Source: a virus. From it: 32,792 nucleotides of DNA. Below the pieces are notes generated by a model. The model saw only the letters and a program-made list of their open reading frames with translations, was not told the DNA's origin and did not search any database. Location of the stretch: IMG/VR virus record IMGVR_UViG_3300021364_002105, positions 1-32,792 of that record, one strand, 5' to 3'. Positions 3,207 to 14,838 of the stretch are shown piece by piece (position 1 is the stretch's first letter; each line of letters opens with the position of its first letter). The translations under genes were made by a program, and so were the position numbers.

Positions 3207-3527
3207 ATGAAAAATTATAATGTGATAGTAAAGGCCAAATCTTCTGAGAAAGGTACTTTTGATAAAAATAAAATTAAAGATTTCTTAAAAAATGAATTAG
3301 GATATTCTTTCTCACCTGTAAAAGGTTCTGATAATGCGTTTTGGATAAACGGTCAAACTGTTGATAATACATTTCATGAATTCATGAGTGGTTCTAAATA
3401 CTACAAACTAGTAGTTAATACTAGAGATTTTGGTATTGCAGCTAGTGGTGATTTCAATGCTTTCGCAATGGCATCTGAAATTAAAGATGGTATGTATAAA
3501 CATCATGTTGCACAGGAGGCTAAATAA
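3207..3527 (+). CDS. Unidentified 106-residue early protein
   Basis: The ATG at 3207 is chosen over one at 3186 because AAGGAG lies 8 nt before it and inside the longer frame. The product is small, mixed alpha/beta in appearance and basic near the N-terminus, with no signal peptide or membrane segment. I recognise no family. It is the first gene after promoter P2, and its TAA overlaps the next ATG by 1 nt, so the genes are probably translationally coupled. Genes in this position in T4-like phages are often host-takeover genes, but nothing here shows a specific role. Confidence 0.7.
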   Translation: MKNYNVIVKAKSSEKGTFDKNKIKDFLKNELGYSFSPVKGSDNAFWINGQTVDNTFHEFMSGSKYYKLVVNTRDFGIAASGDFNAFAMASEIKDGMYKHHVAQEAK

Positions 3528-3952
3528 TGGAAACAATTCAATTTATCCCAACTGAACACAGTGGCTTTGCTACTGGCACATCAAGACAAGGTTATATGGA
3601 AAGTGTAACCACAGATCAATTAATCGAAATGTTTGGCGATCCAATTTATTACGCACCTAATGAAATGGGTGGTAAAGTTACTATGGAATGGGTTGTAAAA
3701 ACACAAAGAACAAATAGTGATGGAGAAACTGAATACGGAGTATTCACTCTCTATGATTGGAAAGGTTCAAGACCATGGCAGAATGACCATGAATGGACAG
3801 TAAATATTGGTGGTGGTTCCATCGATGATTATTGGAATGCACTTGATGCATTCAGAATATTTGATAAAACAGATATCAGATACACACAAGACAAAGCATG
3901 TATGGCACATGCTGTTTTACATGATTTAAATTTTGATAAGGAGGCTGTATAA
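3527..3952 (+). CDS. Unidentified 141-residue early protein
   Basis: This acidic, Trp- and Tyr-rich soluble protein contains MFGDPIYYAP near 36, GVFTLYDWKGSRPW near 71 and WTVNIGGG near 90. No membrane segment or catalytic motif is recognised. An AGGAGG sits a few bases before its ATG inside the end of the previous gene, and the stop overlaps the next ATG by 1 nt. The strong ribosome sites and tight packing support a real gene. Function unknown. Confidence 0.72.
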   Translation: METIQFIPTEHSGFATGTSRQGYMESVTTDQLIEMFGDPIYYAPNEMGGKVTMEWVVKTQRTNSDGETEYGVFTLYDWKGSRPWQNDHEWTVNIGGGSIDDYWNALDAFRIFDKTDIRYTQDKACMAHAVLHDLNFDKEAV

Positions 3953-9329: not shown

Positions 9330-9354
9330 GGGGACCTTCGGGTCCCCTTTTTTT
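9330..9354 (+). terminator. Intrinsic terminator with UUCG tetraloop
   Basis: GGGGACC, TTCG loop, GGTCCCC, then seven T (9348-9354). This is a textbook rho-independent terminator ending the gp32 transcript. It overlaps the stop codon (9353-9355) of the convergent tape-measure gene, so it also separates the two converging units. Confidence 0.95.
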
Positions 9355-11581
9355 ATGTGTTAGTATTGACGTGGCCTATTGAATGATTGATTCTATCAGT
9401 ACCTGTAGCCACGATTACTGATTGATTATTATTGATTGTATTTTGTGGTGCAGATACGAAATTATTACCACCTGTTGCACCTTCAGGTAATTTTAACATT
9501 GCATTTTCTATTGATAAATTTGTTACTCTCATTGATGGTATTAAAAGATCTTTATCAAATCCAAGTGATACGTTAGCACCTACAGCATCCATAATTGCAG
9601 CTTCTTTGAATGCGCGCATTGATTCAGTTGCAGAGTCCATCTGCTCAACAAGCTCATTCAATGGAGTTTTATTACCTTTACCATCATCAAATCCAGTAAC
9701 AAAGGTATCTTCTAATGTAGCACCTAATTCAGCAACTGCCTCTGATGTTTCTCTTACTTTAAGTTTCATATCTTTTTGGCCTACACCATATAAAAATAAT
9801 CCTAAGCTATCAAACACCTTTGCTGCATTTTGTACAGAAGCTACATTTAATTTGTCTAAAGGACCTAAACTTTCTGTAAGTACTTTAAAGACTGATTTAT
9901 TTTTATCTTTTCCTTCAAAGAAACCACCAGTTATAAAGTTAAATACTTCAGCTGCTGTATCGGCTATACCACCTAAACCTTTAGCACCTAACATTGCTGT
10001 CATGCCTATTCCGATTGCACCTAATCCTAATCCTAAATCTTGTATTTCTTTACCTGTTAAAGGTATTCTTGTCAACTCATTTATACCATCAGCAAAGTTA
10101 CCAAGTAATGTTTTTGTACTACTACCATTTGCACCTAATATACCACCTATACCAGCTACAGTTTCAAATGCCATAAAGAATCCAGCAAGACCTAATCCCA
10201 TTGCAGTTAAACCAGCTGCAAGCCATACACCACCTTTTGGACCTGCAATACCACCAACTGCTAAAAGAGCACCTAATGCTGCTAATGACTTATCATCGAA
10301 AGCATTTATACCTTCAGCAAAATTTGTAATTAATCTTTTAGAAGAACTACCGTCAGCTCCAAGAACACTTGCTAAACCAGATAAAGTTTCAAATCCTAAA
10401 AAGAACCCAGCAATACCTGCACCCATAGCAGTCATTCCAGTTACCATTAATGCCTGTTTACCACCTTTTAAGAAAGCACCTAATCCAGCACTAACACCTA
10501 ATATAGCAACTAAAGCTCCAGCTGCATCTTTTTCTTGTAATACATTTACTGAGTCTGCAAAAGCTCCAACCATACCAGGTAAGGCTTCAAATCCACTTGT
10601 CATCATAGCACCTACTGATGAACCAGCACCAAGACCAGCAAAGAATCCTCCAATACCAGCACCCATTGCTCCCATACCTGTAGCTACTTTTAATACACCT
10701 TTGAAGTCATCAGATACATATCCTATTAATCCACCAGCACCAAGTAATCCTATTAATGCAGTCGCTGATGCAGGCTTTAATGCTGATATAGCGTTATCAA
10801 AACCGTTTATTAAATCAGTATAACTATTGAAGTTTACACCACCACCTAAAGCTGAAATACCATCTAAAATACCTTCACCAATTAATAAACCACCGAAGAA
10901 AGCAGTTATAGCTGCACCCATAGCACCCATGCCTATTGCTGTATCTAAGGGCTTCTTAGAAAAAGTTGCTGCGCCTAAAATTGCAGCTAATGTAACCATA
11001 GTGCCAGGTGACATTACTTCTATAACACCATTAAATTCTTTTAATAATTTTTTAGTAGTACCAAAATCGATATTACCCATATCTTTTACTGATCCTTCAA
11101 TCAATGATTCACCAGCTAAAATACCACCAAAGAACAACGGAATAGCAGCACCTAGTGCACCTATACCAGCAACTGTACCTAGCATATTACCTGCACCGCC
11201 CATGAATCCACTCATGAATCCACCGCCACCACCGTCAGAATCACCACCTTTTTTACCACCATCAGTATTATCTTTGATGTCTTTAAGATGGTCTCTCATC
11301 TCTTGGAATACAGTTTTACTTTCCTTTTCGTCTTCAAGACCTTGTAAAGATTGAGCGTCTAGCATCTCTTGGAAATTTTCGAATCCATAAACAGTTTTAG
11401 CTTGCATGTCTGCAAGAACCATTTGTGTTTTCTTCATATCAAAAAGATGTCTACGACTATTTCTACCATCCCTTTCGATTTCATGTGAAGACTTGTTATT
11501 AGCCTCCATCAATTCAATAAGATGAGTAATACTATCTTTACCTAGTGGATTATCTTGACCGTTGTTGTTTTCTTCGTCCAT
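9353..11581 (-). CDS. Tape-measure-like tail protein with tandem Gly/Ala-rich repeats
   Basis: The 742-residue protein has a charged helical N-terminus (1-110), a Gly-rich hinge (GGGGGF near 117-122), and a long Gly/Ala/Phe-rich hydrophobic core built of repeats. The block GxGAxGAxIxxFFxG recurs at about 139, 217, 302, 382 and 457, a spacing of 75-85 residues, with a weak sixth near 519. The C-terminus (560-742) is charged and then Asn/Thr-rich. Long hydrophobic repeats, its place after gp26/gp51 and its size fit the tail tape measure (role of T4 gp29), which sets tail length and leaves with the DNA. Homology to gp29 itself is not visible by eye. It starts 1 nt from the stop of the small membrane protein gene. 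Confidence 0.7.
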   Translation of the reverse strand: MDEENNNGQDNPLGKDSITHLIELMEANNKSSHEIERDGRNSRRHLFDMKKTQMVLADMQAKTVYGFENFQEMLDAQSLQGLEDEKESKTVFQEMRDHLKDIKDNTDGGKKGGDSDGGGGGFMSGFMGGAGNMLGTVAGIGALGAAIPLFFGGILAGESLIEGSVKDMGNIDFGTTKKLLKEFNGVIEVMSPGTMVTLAAILGAATFSKKPLDTAIGMGAMGAAITAFFGGLLIGEGILDGISALGGGVNFNSYTDLINGFDNAISALKPASATALIGLLGAGGLIGYVSDDFKGVLKVATGMGAMGAGIGGFFAGLGAGSSVGAMMTSGFEALPGMVGAFADSVNVLQEKDAAGALVAILGVSAGLGAFLKGGKQALMVTGMTAMGAGIAGFFLGFETLSGLASVLGADGSSSKRLITNFAEGINAFDDKSLAALGALLAVGGIAGPKGGVWLAAGLTAMGLGLAGFFMAFETVAGIGGILGANGSSTKTLLGNFADGINELTRIPLTGKEIQDLGLGLGAIGIGMTAMLGAKGLGGIADTAAEVFNFITGGFFEGKDKNKSVFKVLTESLGPLDKLNVASVQNAAKVFDSLGLFLYGVGQKDMKLKVRETSEAVAELGATLEDTFVTGFDDGKGNKTPLNELVEQMDSATESMRAFKEAAIMDAVGANVSLGFDKDLLIPSMRVTNLSIENAMLKLPEGATGGNNFVSAPQNTINNNQSVIVATGTDRINHSIGHVNTNT

Positions 11582-11956
11582 TTACTTTCCGCCGAATGCT
11601 TTTCCTGCCTCTGATATACCAAATGCACCAAGTGTTACTACAACAAATGATGTGTATATTGTGTCAGAAATTACTAAATCTTTACCCATAAATGCTGTTA
11701 CTAAATCACATACTCCGAATATTACCATTAGGAAAAATGATATAAATCCTATGATTGATTTTTCATTGAGTATATTATCATCTAAGAATAAGTCCATAAA
11801 CTTATGTTTAGGAGGAGCAAGTTGGTCTCTAGCTCTCTTGGCTTCCTCTTGCATCTCCTTGATTTTATCTTCTTGTTCATCAAGTTTCTCAATCATAGCC
11901 ATGTACTTATCTAAATCTATTTCTACTTCATTTCTACTATTATCTGTTTCAGCCAT
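11582..11956 (-). CDS. Small coiled-coil and two-helix membrane protein
   Basis: The 124-residue protein has an acidic coiled coil (about 12-48) and two membrane helices (about 67-90 and 98-116) ending in a short Gly/Lys tail. It sits between gp51 and the tape-measure gene, overlapping gp51 through TAATG. The shape is holin-like, but lysis genes are not otherwise present here. A role in the tail hub or in DNA passage through the membrane is as likely. No family is recognised with confidence. Confidence 0.65.
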   Translation of the reverse strand: MAETDNSRNEVEIDLDKYMAMIEKLDEQEDKIKEMQEEAKRARDQLAPPKHKFMDLFLDDNILNEKSIIGFISFFLMVIFGVCDLVTAFMGKDLVISDTIYTSFVVVTLGAFGISEAGKAFGGK

Positions 11957-12147
11957 TATCGTCTCCTTTGCTGTTTTTTAATTCTTTCATTTTCCTCTTG
12001 TATATGAGACTGCAGTAAAGATAAATATATCTCCCTCTCCCACGGCATCATATCTTCCAGTTCTGTGAGACTATAATTATGATGTTGCATTAATGCAAAA
12101 TTAGTTTGGTAATAGTTTTCCAAACTTTCATGCGAGAGGCCTACCCA
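11956..12147 (-). CDS. 51: gp51-like extension made by -1 frameshift from gp26
   Basis: This frame has no ATG near its beginning; the first in-frame ATG is 20 codons in. It joins the gp26 frame exactly by a -1 shift at T TTT TTT just before the gp26 stop. The 63 residues include WVGLSHESLENYY, FALMQHHNYSLTELEDM and MPWEREIYLSLLQ. This pattern is typical of the downstream half of phage tail-assembly chaperones and gp51-like proteins of marine T4-like phages. A basic Gln/Arg-rich end overlaps the next ATG. It is best read as the C-terminal part of a ~300-residue gp26-gp51 fusion, as in lambda gpG-gpGT, that helps tape-measure and hub assembly. The frame is clear; the T4 gp51 name is tentative because T4 gp51 is longer. 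Confidence 0.72.
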   Translation of the reverse strand, partial: WVGLSHESLENYYQTNFALMQHHNYSLTELEDMMPWEREIYLSLLQSHIQEENERIKKQQRRR

Positions 12148-12857
12148 AAAAAATTGGCTAAACCCTTTAATTCAATATCAATATCCTTATTGCACTTTAG
12201 GCAATTTGTTTTAGTCTCATAGTAAATTGCTGGAGCATTTTGAAAAAACCTTTGTATTCTATTAAACTGTTCAGTATTTAAACTGTCTATAAATGCTCTA
12301 ACTTCTTCAGAACTTACATCTTTAGTTGGATGTACACTGTCATTATCAAAGATAGTATCAATACATTCTACGATAATATCCATAATAACTTCTGTTTGTT
12401 TTGCATCATCACTAAGCTCTAAAGATTGTAATTTAGCAGCTGTAGGATAATTCAGTGTTACACCAACACCATTTTCTTCCTCTAACATAATAGTTTTTTC
12501 TGTATCATTGTTGATAATTTTTATATCATCAATGTCCATTACTAATTTTGTTAGTCCATCACAACTCTCATCTGTACATTTTGTCTGTAGTGTAATTTTT
12601 TCACCTACAGATTTTGCACGTAATTGCAAAAATAGGTATTCAATATCTACTGTAGTACATTCATCTAATGTATCTAAACTAGTACAATGTAAAATGATTT
12701 CTCTCACTGCAGTAGTAATCTGAACAGCATCTTGAGATTCAAGAGCTATCATCAATACCTTTTCCTCTTTGACCAAGAATGGTCTCATATTAATTTCTTC
12801 CCCACTACTTGGTAATTTTACCTTGTATTGTGGAATGTTCAATTTTGGCAATGCCAT
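12141..12857 (-). CDS. 26: gp26-like baseplate hub / tail assembly chaperone
   Basis: The 238-residue protein starts MALPKLNIPQYKVKLPSSG, a form I know from gp26 of T4-like phages, followed by a helical middle. Two Cys pairs, C94-x4-C99 and C219-x2-C222, could bind zinc together. The C-terminal FFQNAPAIYYET is characteristic of this family. In T4, gp26 is needed to build the baseplate hub. Most ribosomes should stop at TAG 12141, and a minority should shift -1 into the gp51-like frame. AAGGAG precedes the ATG. It lies between the tail-tube-fold gene and the small membrane/tape-measure genes. Confidence 0.82.
   Translation of the reverse strand: MALPKLNIPQYKVKLPSSGEEINMRPFLVKEEKVLMIALESQDAVQITTAVREIILHCTSLDTLDECTTVDIEYLFLQLRAKSVGEKITLQTKCTDESCDGLTKLVMDIDDIKIINNDTEKTIMLEEENGVGVTLNYPTAAKLQSLELSDDAKQTEVIMDIIVECIDTIFDNDSVHPTKDVSSEEVRAFIDSLNTEQFNRIQRFFQNAPAIYYETKTNCLKCNKDIDIELKGLANFFG
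12147..12153 (-). other. -1 ribosomal frameshift site in gp26
   Basis: On the minus strand the end of gp26 reads GCC AAT TTT TTT GGG TAG. The heptamer T TTT TTT is the ideal X XXY YYZ form, so both tRNAs re-pair perfectly after a -1 slip. The new frame stays open for 63 codons to 11956. The shift happens two codons before the zero-frame stop, as in tail-chaperone genes. Confidence 0.7.
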
Positions 12858-12871
12858 AATATTATTCTCCT

Positions 12872-13522
12872 TTAATTATTAAGTATATCAAGTACTGCCC
12901 CTGCTCCGGATAGTGATGATGATATTGAACCTTCAGGTACATATGAATCATAATCAATAGTGACACTAAGTTCACCCATTGCATTTTCATTACTTGAATC
13001 TAAATCAATAGAGGTAACTGTAGTTGGGAAAGCCTTTAAAAGCTTAACACCATATACTACTTTACCTTGTGGATTCAACTGTTGTATAACCATATCACAG
13101 CTATAATCCTTTTTATATCCAACCGTATGATTATTAATATCAACTTCTAAATGAATCCAATTATCAAATAATCTTTTTATATAATAATCATTAGTTAAAA
13201 TAAACTTTAAATTTACAGGCTCATGGATAAAAGTATTTGCAGCTTTTACTGATTGCTTTCCATGAGCATGCTCTAGTGTTTGTATTTGTGCACCTGGTAT
13301 GTTTGCACTTTGACATAATAGTGATAAATCTCTAGGATCATTTAATATATTTTTTGGATTAAATTCACCAGAACCTCCACCTATAAATGATCCTAATAGT
13401 TGGTCGGGGTCTATATTAAATAAAGTTGTTTGAGGTGGTGTAAATAATATTCTAAAATTATTAGTTCTAGCTATTCCGCCTTTTTTACCAATAACTGATT
13501 TTAATTCTTCTATCGTAGCCAT
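12872..13522 (-). CDS. Tail-tube-fold protein, probable gp54-like tube initiator
   Basis: The 216-residue protein carries the layout of phage tail-tube proteins: an N-terminal strand after RTNNFRILFTPP, then LSLLCQSANIPG, and a beta region with SCDMVIQQLNPQGKVVYG. Next come KAFPTTVTSIDLD and a closing strand ELSVTIDYDSYV. T4 gp19, gp48 and gp54 share this fold. gp48 is found separately at 14879, and the location beside gp26 points to the gp54 role (starting tube polymerisation on the baseplate), although the length is short of T4 gp54 (320). Main tube protein gp19 is an alternative. The start overlaps the preceding stop by 1 nt. Confidence 0.65.
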   Translation of the reverse strand: MATIEELKSVIGKKGGIARTNNFRILFTPPQTTLFNIDPDQLLGSFIGGGSGEFNPKNILNDPRDLSLLCQSANIPGAQIQTLEHAHGKQSVKAANTFIHEPVNLKFILTNDYYIKRLFDNWIHLEVDINNHTVGYKKDYSCDMVIQQLNPQGKVVYGVKLLKAFPTTVTSIDLDSSNENAMGELSVTIDYDSYVPEGSISSSLSGAGAVLDILNN

Positions 13523-14361
13523 TATGTTGTTTTCCTAATTCCTTTTTGATAACCAAAGTTAGCTGTAATTCTACTTTGATGAAATATTTTTTGTTTTGGT
13601 GCACCAACAAAATGTTCTACGGGTAAATGAGCAGCTAAAGGCCAATCTGACATATCAATTCTAACTATTTTTGACTTGATATTTTTTCTATGATATACCT
13701 TTAAGCATGGTGCATGTAATTCGTATTTTTCTTTACCTTTTAATCTATCATACTTAAGGTTTCTTATTCTTTCTTGCATGTGTGATTCCGCATGTAATTC
13801 ATCACCAACGTCCATTCTTATCTTAGAACGTTTTTTCCTTTGCATGTCTTTAGTAAAATCGTCGTCTATACCTTCATATAACGTCATTAAATTTTTTAGT
13901 AATTTAAACCTATCAACATAATTTAAGTAATGTATATTTAATCCCATAAAGTTAGAGCCTTTCTTTTTCATATATAATACTAATGGAAATTTATCATAGT
14001 AAGGTAATGTCATTTTACCTTTCGGTTCATAAACAAACATATACATCGCACCAATCAAAAATCTTGTAGTAGGTTGTACACCCTTATCTTGCAATAATTG
14101 TTGTCTACTTACTCTACCTAGTTCTGCAACTTTTTGTTCATAAAAAGACCTAGCACGATTACTAAAGTTAGAATCAGTAAATCTTCTACCTTCCCAATCT
14201 TTATTAAAAATGTCTTTAGAAACTGCATCTGTTACATATTCTCCATAGCCTGAAGCTTTGAATCTATCAACTTTACCTACTTCACCACCAGTATATGAAT
14301 CCTCTCGATATTTTGCTCCAATATCTCTGGTAACTTTATCGAATTTTTTTTGTCCTGACAT
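13522..14361 (-). CDS. Unidentified 279-residue protein, probably virion-associated
   Basis: A strongly basic protein. The middle has TRFLIGAMYMFVYEP, a Pro-Tyr-Asp segment and FPLVLYMKKKGSNFMGLNIHYLN (split here: FPLVLYM near 126, GLNIHYLNYVDRFKLL near 140). A charged Lys/Arg stretch (185-215) and a C-terminal SDWPLAAHLPVEHF follow. I have seen the FPLVL...GLNIHYL pattern in conserved proteins of unrelated large phages but cannot name its function. It has its own late box 22 nt upstream with AAGGAT as ribosome site, and lies between gp4 and a tube protein, so a virion role (head-completion or tail) is likely. gp2-like is a guess only. Confidence 0.65.
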   Translation of the reverse strand: MSGQKKFDKVTRDIGAKYREDSYTGGEVGKVDRFKASGYGEYVTDAVSKDIFNKDWEGRRFTDSNFSNRARSFYEQKVAELGRVSRQQLLQDKGVQPTTRFLIGAMYMFVYEPKGKMTLPYYDKFPLVLYMKKKGSNFMGLNIHYLNYVDRFKLLKNLMTLYEGIDDDFTKDMQRKKRSKIRMDVGDELHAESHMQERIRNLKYDRLKGKEKYELHAPCLKVYHRKNIKSKIVRIDMSDWPLAAHLPVEHFVGAPKQKIFHQSRITANFGYQKGIRKTT

Positions 14362-14391: not shown

Positions 14392-14838
14392 CTATTTGGA
14401 CAGCACTTTTATGCCAAGATTCTTTAAAGTTTCTTCTGTCCATACTTGAAAATGCCACCCATTATGTTCAGCAAATTCAGCTGCAGCTTTCCACTTGTCC
14501 TGATTCTTTACGAATGTAAGTGATTCCTGTATATATTTTTTAGACCTTCTGGACTTTTTCTTAGGAGGTAATGTTTCTTTTTTAGGTTTGATTTCAACAA
14601 GATAAACTTTCTTGTTATCCATTTCAATCAATAAATCGACATAGTACCTGTGTAGTCTTTGATCAACACTATACTTATATGGTATCACAACCTCTTCAGA
14701 ATTCCATAGCTTTACAGATGGATTATTCTCACACCATCTGAAAGCATTACGTTCCCAAAGCGACCTGTATACCACTTTTGTAGGATCACCAGCGTATTTT
14801 TCTGGCTTTTTTATTGTATATCTACCCTTGTAACTCAT
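14392..14838 (-). CDS. 4: Head completion protein gp4 (nuclease fold)
   Basis: The 148-residue protein matches gp4 of T4-like phages in length and pattern: YRSLWERNAFRWCENNP (24-40), NSEEVVIPYKY (46-56), RYYVDLLIE (64-72) and YLVEIKPKKE (79-88). The last two give D68 and E82-x-K84, the core of a PD-(D/E)xK nuclease site, with E29 as a likely fourth residue. gp4 closes the packaged head, together with gp50/gp65, so that the tail can attach; the nuclease-like site suggests it trims DNA ends. It is the first gene of the minus arm; its late box is at 14871-14878. Confidence 0.9.
   Translation of the reverse strand: MSYKGRYTIKKPEKYAGDPTKVVYRSLWERNAFRWCENNPSVKLWNSEEVVIPYKYSVDQRLHRYYVDLLIEMDNKKVYLVEIKPKKETLPPKKKSRRSKKYIQESLTFVKNQDKWKAAAEFAEHNGWHFQVWTEETLKNLGIKVLSK

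Follow-up and report, generated by a model that had tools for sequence, protein, structure and literature searches.

Among the closest described counterparts of the locus reported here are the tail assembly chaperones gpG and gpGT of phage lambda, a short form and a minor -1-frameshifted long form, whose roles are summarised in PMC5009743. Tail assembly chaperone genes of T4-like phages were identified by Vladimirov, Gautam and Davidson in 2022 (Virology 566:9-15). The PRFect paper (PMC10885494), citing Vladimirov, describes T4-like phages with a short gene and a longer fusion gene that replaces the frameshift, and PMC12846349 (2025) cites Vladimirov et al. 2022 for poly-T -1 signals in T4-like phages. 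The first-pass annotation of this DNA had held that the scheme was not firmly described for T4-like phages; this is contradicted by Vladimirov et al. 2022, as cited in these two papers. By the same sources the chaperone frameshift is already recognised for T4-like phages, and the present sequence adds a member. No other direct report of gp26/gp51 frameshifting was found in the literature searched.

The window is the whole stretch of DNA that was analysed, 32,792 nt in length and from a marine T4-like virus (IMG/VR record IMGVR_UViG_3300021364_002105). Judged from its sequence, it is highly probable that one locus in the window encodes two forms of a tail assembly chaperone of the lambda G/GT type by way of a programmed -1 frameshift.

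Slip site, reading frames and neighbouring genes in the window

The features of the locus, all on the minus strand, are as follows.

12872..13522, minus: tail tube (gp19-like) gene (PF06841, E 5e-7; phrog_45 tail tube, E 2e-35)
12141..12857, minus: gp26-like short chaperone form (TAC-N), 238 aa (PF12322, phrog_150, AlphaFold model)
12147..12153, minus: slippery heptamer T_TTT_TTT in the gp26 frame (read directly; homologous junctions)
12141..12143, minus: 0-frame stop TAG that terminates the short form (read directly)
11956..12147, minus: gp51-like -1 frame extension, 63 codons and TAA (phrog_634; phrog_150 positions 236-280)
12103..12126, minus: weak possible stem AGTTTGG..CCAAACT (fold of the 45 nt after the heptamer)
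11582..11956, minus: 124-aa gene that separates the extension from the putative tape measure gene, with its own Shine-Dalgarno sequence AAAGGAG at 11969..11963
9353..11581, minus: putative tape measure protein, 742 aa (by position only, as in HTVC008M)

The gp26-like ORF consists of 238 codons and its terminal codons are GCC AAT TTT TTT GGG TAG, with a single sense codon (GGG) between the heptamer and the stop. The same gap of one sense codon is found in 132 of 157 homologues. The extension begins with the -1 frame codons TGG GTA GGC CTC TCG CAT, and its translation is WVGLSHESLENYYQTNFALMQHHNYSLTELEDMMPWEREIYLSLLQSHIQEENERIKKQQRRR, followed by the TAA at 11958..11956. Its earliest ATG is codon 20, the only start-like codon ahead of this being a TTG at codon 9. 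No Shine-Dalgarno core was found ahead of the extension in the window; the gp26-like gene has the Shine-Dalgarno sequence AAAGGAG at 12873..12867 (minus). The letters and coordinates that the first-pass annotation gave for the end of the gp26 frame are thus confirmed, as is its claim that a -1 slip on T TTT TTT opens a 63-codon frame with no initial ATG.

The main ORFs of the window contain four in-frame T_TTT_TTN sites in a total of 9,098 codons. There are 59 in-frame sites of the general form XXXYYYZ in these ORFs, and the gp26 heptamer alone lies 8 codons or fewer from the end of its ORF. A chance origin of the heptamer is untenable because of the survey of homologues described below, where it is found in all 157 junctions.

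The proteins are members of the T4 gp26/gp51 family (PF12322/phrog_150 and phrog_634). The gp26-like protein matches Pfam T4_baseplate PF12322 with an E value of 2e-56 and 191.6 bits (cut-off 24.5) and phrog_150 with an E value of 8e-61. The extension matches phrog_634, 'baseplate hub assembly catalyst' (gp51), with an E value of 3e-29, and it also matches phrog_150 at positions 236-280.

The tail tube gene is directly upstream of the chaperone gene. The product of the 124-aa gene has an acidic coil and then hydrophobic segments, and showed no family match above cut-off in Pfam or PHROG. Genes at the same position in Melnitz and HTVC008M open with an EF-hand-like DTNGDGKVS motif. The 742-aa ORF likewise showed no family match in Pfam or PHROG and no significant BLASTP similarity; the HTVC008M gene at the same place is annotated 'putative tail tape measure'. 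The order tail tube, chaperone, 124-aa gene and, by position, putative tape measure fits that of lambda by analogy, the tape measure identity being putative and drawn from synteny with HTVC008M. A 463-aa ORF with a TTG start at 9432-10823 (plus) is antisense to the 742-aa gene and is most likely a shadow of this Gly/Ala-rich gene. Farther along, a 279-aa ORF at 13522-14361 (minus) has a match to phrog_429, the family of DNA end protectors, and a 148-aa ORF at 14392-14838 (minus) matches a TnsA-like head closure protein (gp4-like).

In the proposed mechanism, where we infer that slippage occurs and how often, what the proteins bind and which protein is the tape measure, most ribosomes would read the gp26 frame to the TAG and produce an abundant short form of 238 aa. 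In a minority, with the stop one codon ahead, both tRNAs on T_TTT_TTT would slip back one base, and the slipped ribosomes would read 63 further codons to give a long form of 300 aa (TAC-NC). The gp51-like part would never be produced separately from gp26. If lambda gpG/gpGT are taken as the model, the region common to both forms may coat the tape measure protein, the additional region of the less abundant long form may recruit tail-tube subunits, and both forms may depart before the tail is completed.

Conservation of the junction in related phages

Homologous contigs were drawn from IMG/VR by protein profile, and the heptamer was not a selection criterion. The resulting set combines viral contigs with named phages and has 157 distinct junctions; it leans to marine phages because the loci are the closest relatives returned. 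The 156 junctions with enough flank give 114 representatives with less than 80% identity. The first-pass annotation had proposed looking for a slippery heptamer at the gp26-gp51 junction of relatives, and the outcome supports the frameshift: every one of the 157 junctions places the gp51 part in the -1 frame and has T_TTT_TTN, in frame, at the same position. An in-frame slippery heptamer ahead of the 0-frame stop is therefore present in the window and in its homologues. The last codon of the heptamer is TTC in 105 junctions, TTT in 38, TTA in 12 and TTG in 2, and the codon that precedes the Phe codons of the heptamer ends in T in every one. The remaining FF pairs of these genes provide a control: only 7 of 143 have the form T_TTT_TTN, and TTC represents 423 of the 1,626 Phe codons outside the junction.

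Among named phages, S-ShM2, P-SSM5, Mosig, Melnitz, HTVC008M, Cr30, R11Z, phiM9, RHph_Y68 and S-SSM6a have nnT TTT TT[T/C/G] close to the gp26 terminus, and their gp51 lies in the -1 frame. Four further named phages, S-PM2, Vibrio nt-1, Aeromonas Asswx_1 and Stenotrophomonas YB07, agree in both the heptamer and the -1 gp51. The named phages with the heptamer represent Kyanoviridae, Pootjesviridae, part of Straboviridae (Schizotequatrovirus, Mylasvirus and Emmerichvirinae), Menderavirus and the unassigned Cr30. In a subgroup of loci (L006 at 3501-3716, L042, L050, L058, L083, L114, L124 and L173) the gp26 frame extends 8-9 codons beyond the heptamer, and the short form therefore has a different tail. 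The altered tail overlaps the region that codes for the conserved LSH.

A stimulatory RNA structure downstream of the slip site is helpful, and not obligatory, for programmed -1 frameshifting. The 45 nt after the heptamer were folded and compared with synonymous recodings of the same peptide. The native sequences are the more stable ones, and most relatives have a stem downstream of the heptamer. For the 114 representatives the mean z is -1.21 (Wilcoxon p 1.4e-12), and seven control stretches in gp51 and gp26 have z values of -0.36 to 0.23. The stem effect is strongest in T_TTT_TTA junctions (mean z -2.4), which have 8-bp hairpins approximately 5 nt past the heptamer, e.g., GGGCTCTC-ACAT-GAGAGCCT. 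There are compensatory stem variants in this group, i.e., GACTTTC/GAAAGTC and GACTATC/GATAGTC. When one fixed helix was scored over the 12 T_TTT_TTA junctions, the observed both-side changes were reached in 2 of 500 shuffles and the covariation score in 63 of 500; significance is only partial because the stem shifts register between lineages. Other lineages have a different stem, e.g., AGTATGGCTCA/TGAGTCATACT, with a nearby ATG enclosed in it. In the window, with its weak possible stem, the fold of these 45 nt has a value of -7.6 kcal/mol and a z of -0.96 against synonymous shuffles, which is not significant, and slippage there would rely on the run of seven T residues and the adjacent stop. 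No description of a conserved downstream stem or of a strict link between the heptamer and the one-gene arrangement was found in the open-access literature, which is weak evidence.

T4-type gene pairs, predicted fold and alternative explanations

The gp51 proteins of T4, Aes508 and the RB49-like phage kvi have approximately 250 aa and match the marine fusion over its whole length (hhalign probability 99.2%). T4 gp26 aligns with the short part of the fusion and ends at the slip point (probability 99.3%), and T4 gp26 and gp51 are themselves paralogues (probability 97.6%). PF12322 is present once in frameshift-type records and twice in T4, Aes508, kvi and a Campylobacter phage. No heptamer was found near the homologous point in any of 41 gp26/gp51 hits from 38 T4-type loci, and no leftover heptamer was found in the T4-type genes, T4 gp26 retaining the FF as TTC TTT. 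T4-type phages are without the heptamer, but their gp51 is a full-length fused paralogue, and they therefore support the idea of a frameshift fusion. Short and long forms with a common N-terminal part are thus specified by one gene and a predicted frameshift in the window and by two paralogues in T4-type phages. In the T4 record (L016 4803-5090), gene 26 is annotated with an additional product, 26', which is internal, in frame and encoded at the 3' end.

In a phylogenetic tree the T4-type short and long forms are sister clades (support 96/87) and lie outside the frameshift-using Straboviridae. The Campylobacter pair is found elsewhere on long branches, and its placement is unsure. The two PF12322 genes of Campylobacter phage IBB_35 are divergent and far apart (L012 2491-3231; L213), and the Campylobacter pair may be a second, independent duplication. 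Taken together, the scales tip slightly toward a history in which the single frameshifted gene is older in the T4 superfamily and was later replaced, perhaps twice, by a duplicated pair, with erasure of the heptamer; the replacements would perhaps be those in the T4/RB49/Aes508 type and in Campylobacter phages. If this is true, the ratio of short to long form passed from ribosome slippage to separate gene control, and the position and sequence of the stem-loop drift while its spacing from T_TTT_TTN stays short.

The fold of the window gp26-like short form was modelled with AlphaFold (pLDDT 85.7). In a Foldseek comparison with the PDB, the highest-probability match of the model is the HK97 tail assembly chaperone 2ob9_B, with a probability of 0.87 and an E value of only 0.45, and YqbN is likewise among the matches. 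VIA-align places HK97 gp13 and YqbN as the top two, at Z 7.2 (next row 4.9) and with 3.9 A over 77 residues and 3.8 A over 84, respectively, although a Z under 8 can reflect a common arrangement. The match is limited to residues 1-86 of the model. This is suggestive of a chaperone-like N-terminal fold in the predicted structure, a modest match and not proof. A model of T4-type gp51 (pLDDT 89.4) had no chaperone match in VIA-align, where its best Z of 4.9 was to an unrelated protein.

Independent initiation of gp51 was considered over the same 157 junctions. Within the first 12 codons of the extension, 102 junctions have no ATG and 74 have no ATG, GTG or TTG. Early residues of the extension are conserved (L4 89%, H6 95%, L9 99%), differences in this region fall preferentially on third codon positions as read in the -1 frame, and in relatives the conserved L/H/L residues precede any start codon. 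By these sequence comparisons, the -1 frame is conserved coding sequence past the stop without independent initiation. This makes it very unlikely that gp51 is a separate small protein made by coupling or reinitiation near the gp26 stop, with the T run incidental. Such initiation is suggested by an ATG that overlaps or just follows the stop (TGATG or TAATG) in Cr30, R11Z, phiM9 and Y68, where it is so annotated, and some public records annotate nearby ATGs as gp51 starts. However, a Shine-Dalgarno core is present in 0 of the 48 junctions with an ATG within the first seven extension codons, compared with 101 of 154 for the starts of gp26 and 65 of 139 for the genes that come next, and no frameshift-type relative was found to have its own gp51 start and ribosome site and to lack the heptamer, the combination that the first-pass annotation had named as refuting. 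The presence of the heptamer in every junction and the fusion of the same segment to a gp26-like domain in T4-type phages also argue against reinitiation. A long form could also be produced by slippage of RNA polymerase on the T run, since the T7 of the window and the T8 of eight relatives are within reach of some transcriptional slippage. This is extremely improbable: in 119 of the 157 junctions the run is no longer than T6, the next base being usually C, and the run keeps the codon register and has a stem-loop at short spacing, as ribosomal slippage predicts.

A further explanation concerns function, i.e., the products would be structural parts of the baseplate hub and the long form an assembly factor unrelated to tape-measure chaperones. 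Annotations of T4 and its relatives, with gp26 as hub subunit and gp51 as hub assembly catalyst, agree with this, as does genetic work cited in a 2010 review (PMC3004832) that puts gp26 in the hub. The same review, however, terms both T4 proteins 'hub assembly chaperone' and states that gp51 is absent from the particle. No chain in the PDB sequence set matched the gp26 or the gp51 profile, the predicted fold resembles that of tail assembly chaperones, and T4-like chaperone genes were identified by Vladimirov et al. in the work cited above. A structural role in the hub, with a long form unrelated to tape-measure chaperones, is very unlikely. A lambda G/GT-like pair is supported because the heptamer and frame are found in 157 of 157 junctions, the extension has no ribosome site of its own, T4-type phages have a fused homologue, and the predicted fold agrees. 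The suggestion of the first-pass annotation that gp26/gp51 have the same role as lambda gpG-gpGT gains support, at the level of sequence and model, from the conserved junctions, the T4-type fusion and the predicted fold.

Comparison with known systems

For the genes annotated 'baseplate hub subunit' and 'baseplate hub assembly catalyst', the best reading is that they form a single chaperone gene with a frameshift. Their separate annotation spans hundreds of cyanophage and pelagiphage genomes, and with one frameshifted gene the gp51 start sites in those records are therefore probably wrong. The family also represents a natural experiment, in which a recoding signal would have been exchanged for gene duplication with both protein forms kept, and existing T4 amber mutants allow tests of the gp26/gp51 roles.

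Like lambda gpG/gpGT, the window locus would produce a short form and a minor -1-frameshifted long form. It is likewise located between the tail tube and the (in the window, putative) tape measure genes, with the slip just before the short-form stop. Lambda slips on G_GGA_AAG (GGGAAAG), whereas the window has T_TTT_TTN. Unlike those of lambda, the window proteins belong to the PF12322 family, have a longer N-terminal part and come from a contractile-tailed phage. HK97 gp13 (2OB9) and B. subtilis YqbN (3KLU) are the best PDB fold matches for residues 1-86 of the gp26 model, with 5-10% sequence identity in the structural alignments and approximately 150 more residues in the window protein.

The locus of Vandenendeviridae and Andersonviridae, as described for phage Adele (PMC12846349), is similar in having a -1 frameshift at a T-rich site that ends a short chaperone gene, and likewise in an extension over 200 bp long. 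Its motif is GTTTTT in place of TTTTTTN, the comparison with the window being one of signal and layout. T4 gp26/gp51 are of the same family, the marine fusion corresponding to T4 gp51 end to end and its short part to T4 gp26. T4, RB49-like and Aes508-type phages have paralogous genes on opposite strands and no heptamer, whereas the window has one gene and a predicted frameshift.
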